From Crocinitomicaceae bacterium (lineage in GTDB: Bacteria > Bacteroidota > Bacteroidia > Flavobacteriales_D > CAJJDF01), in NCBI GenBank assembly GCA_024639505.1, contig JAHEIE010000005.1, forward strand, positions 1-34,269: a DNA stretch of 34,269 nucleotides. Direction: 5' to 3'. The notes beneath the pieces were generated by a model that did no database searches, had not been told where the DNA came from, and saw nothing but the letters and a program-made list of their open reading frames with translations. The position numbers and the translations under genes were made by a program. Below are positions 22,835 to 24,087 of this stretch, one piece after another. Numbering within the stretch: position 1 is the first letter of the stretch; each line of letters opens with the position of its first letter.

Positions 22835-22987
22835 TTTATTTTTTTTGCAAAGGAACTTTTTATTTGTAAGATTATTCGAACCAAATGATTAACCCTATAT
22901 TAATAAATTGAAACCGCATTTTAATGAATGAAATTGGATTTTAAAAACAATTTACTCTCAGTGCTAATCAGAAACAATTGATTTCTT

Positions 22988-22995
22988 TATATTTG
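22988..22995 (+). promoter_or_regulatory. Putative -7 element for the PNGase F-like gene
   Basis: TATATTTG matches TAnnTTTG exactly, 18 nt before the ATG at 23014. No clear -33 TTG lies at the usual distance. This makes the upstream in-frame ATG at 22978 an unlikely start. The rest of 22835-22987 shows no further feature. Confidence 0.45.
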
Positions 22996-23013
22996 AATCA
23001 AACAAAACATATT

Positions 23014-24087
23014 ATGAAGAAGATTACTCTACTTATTTCAGTTCTAATTTTTACTCTTTTAGCCATAAATGGATGTAAAAAAAATGACGAAGAACCAAAA
23101 AATGAAAATAATACAGTTACACCTTGGGAAGGAGTTGAAGGAGAAATAAGAACTTTCAATACTTTTCAGAATGAAAGATTAGCTTTTGGAGGTGGACACA
23201 ATCAAGCTTCATTACAAACATTTACTCTTCATGACGAACCTAGAAATGTTCGGAACATAAAAATGTATATCAAACTGCATTGTCCTACAGGTGGTTGTAA
23301 CGCTTGGGATGTATTTGCCAACATAAAAGTAAAGGACGATGCTTCTGGATTGTACTATGAAATAGGACGATTTATTACACCTTATGGAGTTGATAATTCT
23401 GCTTATCCCGATGGTTATGAAATTGACGTGACTGATTTTAAATCTTTACTAACTGGAAATGCTGAGCTGAGAGCTTACATAGAAACATGGGGTACAGATG
23501 GCTGGGAAATTTCGGTCCGATTTGATTATACTTTAGGGAAACCTGACTACCAATATTATTCTGTGAATAAATTATTGAATTACGATACAAATTCTCTTGA
23601 AGGAGTACCTTATGGTGTGATGCACGGCAAAGATTTAACTCGTACGGTAACGATTCCATCTAATGCAAGTTCTACAAGTTTGAGAACAATAATCACAGGC
23701 TGGGGACACACAACACCAGCAGATCCTGGCAGCGGAAGGCCTTGTGCAGAATGGTGTTTTAGAACTCATAAAATAAAAATTGATGGTGGAGATAAATTCA
23801 ATCATGAAATGGGTGCTTTGGGATGTTCTGCAAATCCTACAAGTAACCAAGCAGGAAATTGGCAACCAGACCGAGCTGGATGGTGCCCAGGAATGGCAGT
23901 ACCAGTAAGAACGGATGTTTTTGATAATTCTAAAGCAGGGGAAACTTTTAATTTTGAATATTTTTACCAACCTTGGTCAAGCAATGGAGGAAGTACTTCG
24001 GGAACTGTAGGAGCTTACTACGCTACTTCTTGTTTTGTAATCGTAAAAAGTGACGAACCTATTTCTAAACCAACGGTTGTAGATTAA
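23014..24087 (+). CDS. PNGase F-like peptide-N(4)-(N-acetyl-beta-glucosaminyl)asparagine amidase, lipoprotein
   Basis: PNGase F cleaves the bond between asparagine and the first GlcNAc of N-glycans. The 357-residue protein follows the Elizabethkingia (Flavobacterium) meningosepticum enzyme over nearly its whole length: YEIGRFITPYGV, EIDVTDFKSLLTGN, CAEWCFRTH and a GNWQPDRAGWCPGMAVP block. Predicted catalytic residues are Asp99, Glu157 and Glu246, with the same spacing (58 and 89 residues) as Asp60, Glu118 and Glu206 of PNGase F (58 and 88). Three cysteine pairs match: 90/95, 244/248 and 271/291. Unlike the secreted enzyme, this one has a lipobox (LLAINGC, Cys21), so it should be membrane-anchored. 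The ATG at 23014 is used rather than 22978 because it begins the signal peptide. It stands alone between minus-strand genes. Confidence 0.95.
   Translation: MKKITLLISVLIFTLLAINGCKKNDEEPKNENNTVTPWEGVEGEIRTFNTFQNERLAFGGGHNQASLQTFTLHDEPRNVRNIKMYIKLHCPTGGCNAWDVFANIKVKDDASGLYYEIGRFITPYGVDNSAYPDGYEIDVTDFKSLLTGNAELRAYIETWGTDGWEISVRFDYTLGKPDYQYYSVNKLLNYDTNSLEGVPYGVMHGKDLTRTVTIPSNASSTSLRTIITGWGHTTPADPGSGRPCAEWCFRTHKIKIDGGDKFNHEMGALGCSANPTSNQAGNWQPDRAGWCPGMAVPVRTDVFDNSKAGETFNFEYFYQPWSSNGGSTSGTVGAYYATSCFVIVKSDEPISKPTVVD

Follow-up and report, generated by a model that had tools for sequence, protein, structure and literature searches.

A PNGase F orthologue with a lipobox N-terminus in a Crocinitomicaceae bacterium

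The PNGase locus

The window, the whole stretch of 34,269 nucleotides that was analysed, has an open reading frame running on the forward strand from ATG 23014 to the stop at 24087 and encoding a 357-residue PNGase F orthologue. An alternative TTG start at 22978, upstream of this ATG, would only lengthen the N-terminus. Compared with its two closest orthologues the gene has a dN of 0.19-0.23 and a dS of ~1.4; it is intact and under clear purifying selection. The features of the locus are as follows, with the evidence for each in brackets.

22835..23013, +, divergent intergenic region between marC and the PNGase gene, with a weak TANNTTTG -7-like box at 22988-22995 (sequence, box count, gene orientation)
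23014..24087, +, PNGase F orthologue, predicted lipoprotein precursor, 357 aa (open reading frame, PDB sequence search, Pfam, alignment, structure model)
23014..23073, +, predicted signal peptide, residues 1-20, MKKITLLISVLIFTLLAING (sequence, N-termini of relatives; helix 3-18 in the model)
23074..23076, +, codon of the lipobox Cys21, followed by KKNDEEP, which resembles the Bacteroidota lipoprotein export signal (LES, PMC5080379) (sequence, N-termini of relatives)
23143..23544, +, first jelly-roll domain, residues ~44-177, holding D99 and E157 (Pfam, AlphaFold2 model, structure match)
23308..23310, +, Asp99 codon, equivalent to PNGase F Asp60 (alignment)
23386..23388, +, Gly125 codon, at the PNGase F Trp86 position (alignment)
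23482..23484, +, Glu157 codon, equivalent to PNGase F Glu118, the type I marker (alignment; PMC9522356)
23503..23505, +, Trp164 codon, at the PNGase F Arg125 position, invariably paired with Gly125 (alignment)
23545..24084, +, second jelly-roll domain, residues ~178-357, holding E246 (Pfam, AlphaFold2 model, structure match)
23749..23751, +, Glu246 codon, equivalent to PNGase F Glu206 (alignment)

As the earlier note had it, the gene is solitary, with marC divergent upstream and an OmpA-family gene convergent downstream. The promoter of its own that was also proposed follows from gene orientation only; a TANNTTTG box lies at 22988, and the window holds 60 such boxes against 50.7 +/- 6.7 expected, so that they are not clearly commoner than expected. 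It is common for PNGase genes to be orphans (PMC12381499).

The neighbourhood is partly kept in the two related loci L033 (anmK, the OmpA-family gene, the PNGase gene and a DnaJ-domain gene) and L034 (anmK on one side and an acyl-CoA dehydrogenase gene on the other), which suggests that the PNGase gene has long been resident at this locus. A TonB-dependent receptor and a DUF4249 lipoprotein divergently adjoin the PNGase gene in L034 (L034:6256-9492). L033 has an apparent DUF4249 gene fragment, and the window has marC at the corresponding place. The PNGase gene occurs in two of the four genomes of the genus. It was not found in the contigs of the other two, G001 and G003, a gap indistinguishable from missing assembly: the G003 contig breaks off near marC-anmK, and a search of G003 for the acyl-CoA dehydrogenase that flanks the gene on its other side gave no match.

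Family membership and fold

The protein is an orthologue of PNGase F (PF09112/PF09113, EC 3.5.1.52). PNGase F is the top PDB-chain match (phmmer, E=4.8e-105, residues 48-356) at ~51% identity, and PF09113 and PF09112 are both found above their gathering scores (39.5 and 27.6 bits, cut-offs 25 and 22.4). Modelling with AlphaFold2 on 44 family sequences gave a mean pLDDT of 89 and the double jelly-roll fold of the PNGase F family. The model superimposes on 1PGS with a Z of 45.4 and an rmsd of 1.2 Å over 310 residues (TM 0.97, target-normalised). The likeness to PNGase F that the earlier note had seen by eye is thus borne out by search, domains and fold. BcsB and PHM also appeared among the PDB matches; functional kinship with them was rejected and the matches were taken as a shared common fold.

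Catalytic residues and predicted type

Residues D99, E157 and E246 align to D60, E118 and E206 of PNGase F, and the near-identical fold match to 1PGS would put them in equivalent places. W59, D60, E118 and W120 (PNGase F numbering) are invariant in the 73 rows of the family alignment that cover them, and W191, E206 and R248 in 74 of 74. The cysteines C90-C95, C244-C248 and C271-C291 fall on the three PNGase F disulfide pairs C51-C56, C204-C208 and C231-C252, and all six are invariant in every row that covers them. Both the catalytic Asp/Glu/Glu and the three cysteine pairs of the earlier reading are therefore present and conserved, and the protein is predicted to release N-glycans. A caveat on function is that the PNGase F residues R61, W86 and R125 are not kept.

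In type I PNGases the E118 position is acidic (Glu) and core alpha-1,3-fucose is not tolerated, and Gly at this position marks type II (PMC9522356). Glu157 thus predicts a type I PNGase that would not cleave glycans with core alpha-1,3-fucose. Such glycans are disfavoured as a substrate, with the altered W86 and R61 positions leaving some room for them.

Pocket-edge subtypes

Four positions that surround the pocket covary, being A97/V100/G125/W164 here and E58/R61/W86/R125 in PNGase F. All 26 sequences with Gly at position 125 have Trp at 164, and all 47 with Trp at 125 have Tyr or Arg at 164. Val at the R61 position is found in 50 of 73 sequences. In PNGase F, Arg61 reportedly contributes to holding chitobiose (PMC12753239), so affinity could be altered where Val takes its place. 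A literature search on the role of Trp86 of PNGase F gave nothing usable.

In a tree built without these columns, the relatives need to have switched between Trp and Gly just twice, and a single origin is compatible with the data. Gly occupies the W86 position in five of five distant T9SS-type outgroups and, by the PDB search alignment, in the PNGase of Bacteroides fragilis (3KS7). The Gly/Trp pair is therefore probably the older arrangement and the W86/R125 edge of PNGase F the derived one, a polarity that is tentative given the long outgroup branches.

A relative from an uncultured Flaviramulus (L042), 57% identical, is a predicted lipoprotein of the same G125/W164 type. Its gene lies in a cluster, L042:4438-16167, of the order GH123-GH29-GH92-PNGase-DUF4838-EEP-GH29 (EEP, endonuclease/exonuclease/phosphatase family), which is likely a locus for the utilisation of fucosylated N-glycans. 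This company of GH92, GH29 and GH123 supports an N-glycan substrate for the subtype.

The lipobox N-terminus

Residues 1-21 read MKKITLLISVLIFTLLAING|C and are followed by KKNDEEP. The N-terminus is signal-peptidase-II-like, with the Cys placed after the h-region, as the earlier note described. Asn at -2 departs from the strictest SPII consensus; the layout is kept in the orthologues L033 and L034. On this sequence evidence the protein is probably lipidated.

The earlier note had also taken the lipobox to set this protein apart from PNGase F. That distinction does not hold. Close relatives, 72 in number, were collected from named genomes by an alignment-based contig search (a single-protein search gave 0). 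With the present protein included, 70 of the 73 sequences have a lipobox by a relaxed regular expression and two more by eye; the remaining one is a truncated, broken or partial frame. The Elizabethkingia genes with a lipobox are 97-99% identical to crystallised PNGase F. One of these, the E. miricola PNGase F gene (L079), starts with MKKLLILSVSAYLMAGIVS|CKGVD and agrees with 1PNF at 302 of 305 mature positions. The lipobox as the mark of a new variant was dropped, since all intact relatives share it. Because every intact close relative examined has one, Elizabethkingia included, the lipoprotein form appears to be the norm in the PNGase F subfamily. The soluble reagent PNGase F would then be better seen as a shed or processed product.

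In L079, L080 and L103 the lipobox of the textbook PNGase F gene is at Cys20, and the crystallised chain (314 residues) begins 20 residues past this Cys.

In 56 of the 70 sequences, two or more of the residues at +3 to +6 from the Cys are acidic. Surface export signals are known for lipoproteins of Capnocytophaga, Bacteroides and Flavobacterium (PMC5080379), and the acidic residues resemble these, which makes surface exposure likely. CKKNDEE is an inexact match to the Capnocytophaga C-X-K-(D/E)2. The envelope location given in the earlier note thus agrees with the lipobox and the LES-like residues, which point to the envelope or the cell surface.

Proposed role

The overall best explanation, in which we have good confidence, is a PNGase F family protein held in the outer membrane as a lipoprotein and most likely outward-facing. 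The enzyme would sit lipid-anchored in the outer membrane and deglycosylate foreign glycoproteins such as algal or animal debris. The unmasked proteins would then become open to surface proteolysis and peptide uptake, and glycan feeding would not be the purpose. That the benefit lies in unmasking foreign glycoproteins for proteases is put at about an even chance. Unmasking is favoured over glycan feeding because none of the glycan-dismantling enzymes searched for was detected. The source genome is a draft of 119 contigs, 97.5% complete, and the search covered seven families, so that another glycan route could have escaped it; GH92, GH18, GH20, GH29, GH130, SusD and STT3 gave no match there and did give matches in control genomes. 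The wider picture, in which flavobacterial PNGase Fs are generally surface lipoproteins, the soluble Elizabethkingia enzyme is shed by proteolysis and the anchored enzyme of lineages like this one serves protein feeding, is less likely than not.

Two alternatives retain some weight. Released N-glycans could be imported and degraded, as in Bacteroides PULs, where PNGases have such a role (PMC9522356), and the L042 cluster shows a relative in that kind of company. The solitary gene and the undetected GH and SusD families argue against it, and nutritional use is considered unlikely here. Equally improbable is a periplasm-facing lipoprotein whose substrates are imported glycopeptides. Two Bacteroides PNGases are predicted to be periplasmic (PMC9522356) and the motif after Cys21 is LES-like, not an exact LES, but most relatives have the acidic residues after the Cys, and a surface location is described as typical of prokaryotic PNGases (PMC12381499).

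An outward-facing active enzyme is also preferred to a catalytically dead homologue or one of altered specificity. The R61V, W86G and R125W differences in the pocket would suit such a protein, but the close family keeps all three catalytic acids without exception, and the B. fragilis enzyme 3KS7, which likewise has Gly at the W86 position, is active (PMC9522356); we give this explanation little credence. Housekeeping on the bacterium's own N-glycoproteins, as the earlier note had allowed, can be set aside as very improbable: the partly conserved chromosomal place outside any glycan locus would fit it, but no STT3/PglB-type oligosaccharyltransferase was found in the genome, which makes own N-glycoproteins unlikely substrates, and the gene is present in just half of the genus genomes, with the reservation about assembly given above. 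General protein glycosylation in Bacteroidota is O-linked and not a substrate of PNGase, which also counts against it.

Comparison with known PNGases

The predicted lipid anchor of this marine flavobacterial PNGase is not unusual, as its intact close relatives appear to share it. Even the gene of textbook PNGase F seems to bear a lipobox, and the native form of that enzyme may be a cell-surface lipoprotein. The W86/R125 edge of PNGase F looks derived beside the G/W pair of the present protein and distant relatives. The lipobox and the pocket edge could help to select PNGases that prefer other glycans.

The closest known system is PNGase F of Elizabethkingia (EMTypeI, 1PNF/1PGS), which shares the fold (Z 45), the catalytic acids, the six cysteines, the single-domain size, the residues W59, W120, W191, H193 and R248, and a lipobox N-terminus in the gene. 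It differs in sequence (~51% identity) and around the pocket, where R61, W86, R125 and E58 are replaced by V100, G125, W164 and A97. The marine flavobacterial and Kordia relatives (L035-L041 and others) share the G125/W164 subtype and the lipobox; the Kordia-type proteins differ in an extra N-terminal region that brings them to ~570 aa in total. In Kordia and several marine flavobacteria the extra ~100-250 residues, possibly Ig-like, precede the catalytic domain.

The PNGase BF0811 of Bacteroides fragilis (3KS7, group 1) shares the fold and has Gly at the W86 position and an acidic residue (Asp) at the E118 position, but is only ~20% identical and has a predicted type I signal sequence and an extra beta-twist insert. 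PNGase F-II (4R4X) and the Bacteroides massiliensis PNGase (7ZGN) share the catalytic core of two jelly rolls. In these enzymes the E118 position is Gly, the N-terminus carries a bowl domain, and core alpha-1,3-fucose is tolerated, whereas the present protein has Glu at this position and no bowl domain. PNGaseL of Flavobacterium akiainvivens is likewise a flavobacterial member of the PNGase F superfamily; it reportedly leaves the cell through the T9SS and has a C-terminal module and an open pocket, in contrast to the predicted lipoprotein without a T9SS tail described here.

A further type of protein is widespread in the order, occurring in most of 100 related genomes. It is a T9SS-sorted protein of ~1000-1200 aa with LamG and N-glycanase_C domains, present in the source genome as C53 (L002:436-3477, -). 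Its PNGase part seemingly lacks the Trp-Asp and Glu-Thr-Trp motifs, and it may be a non-catalytic, glycan-binding relative.
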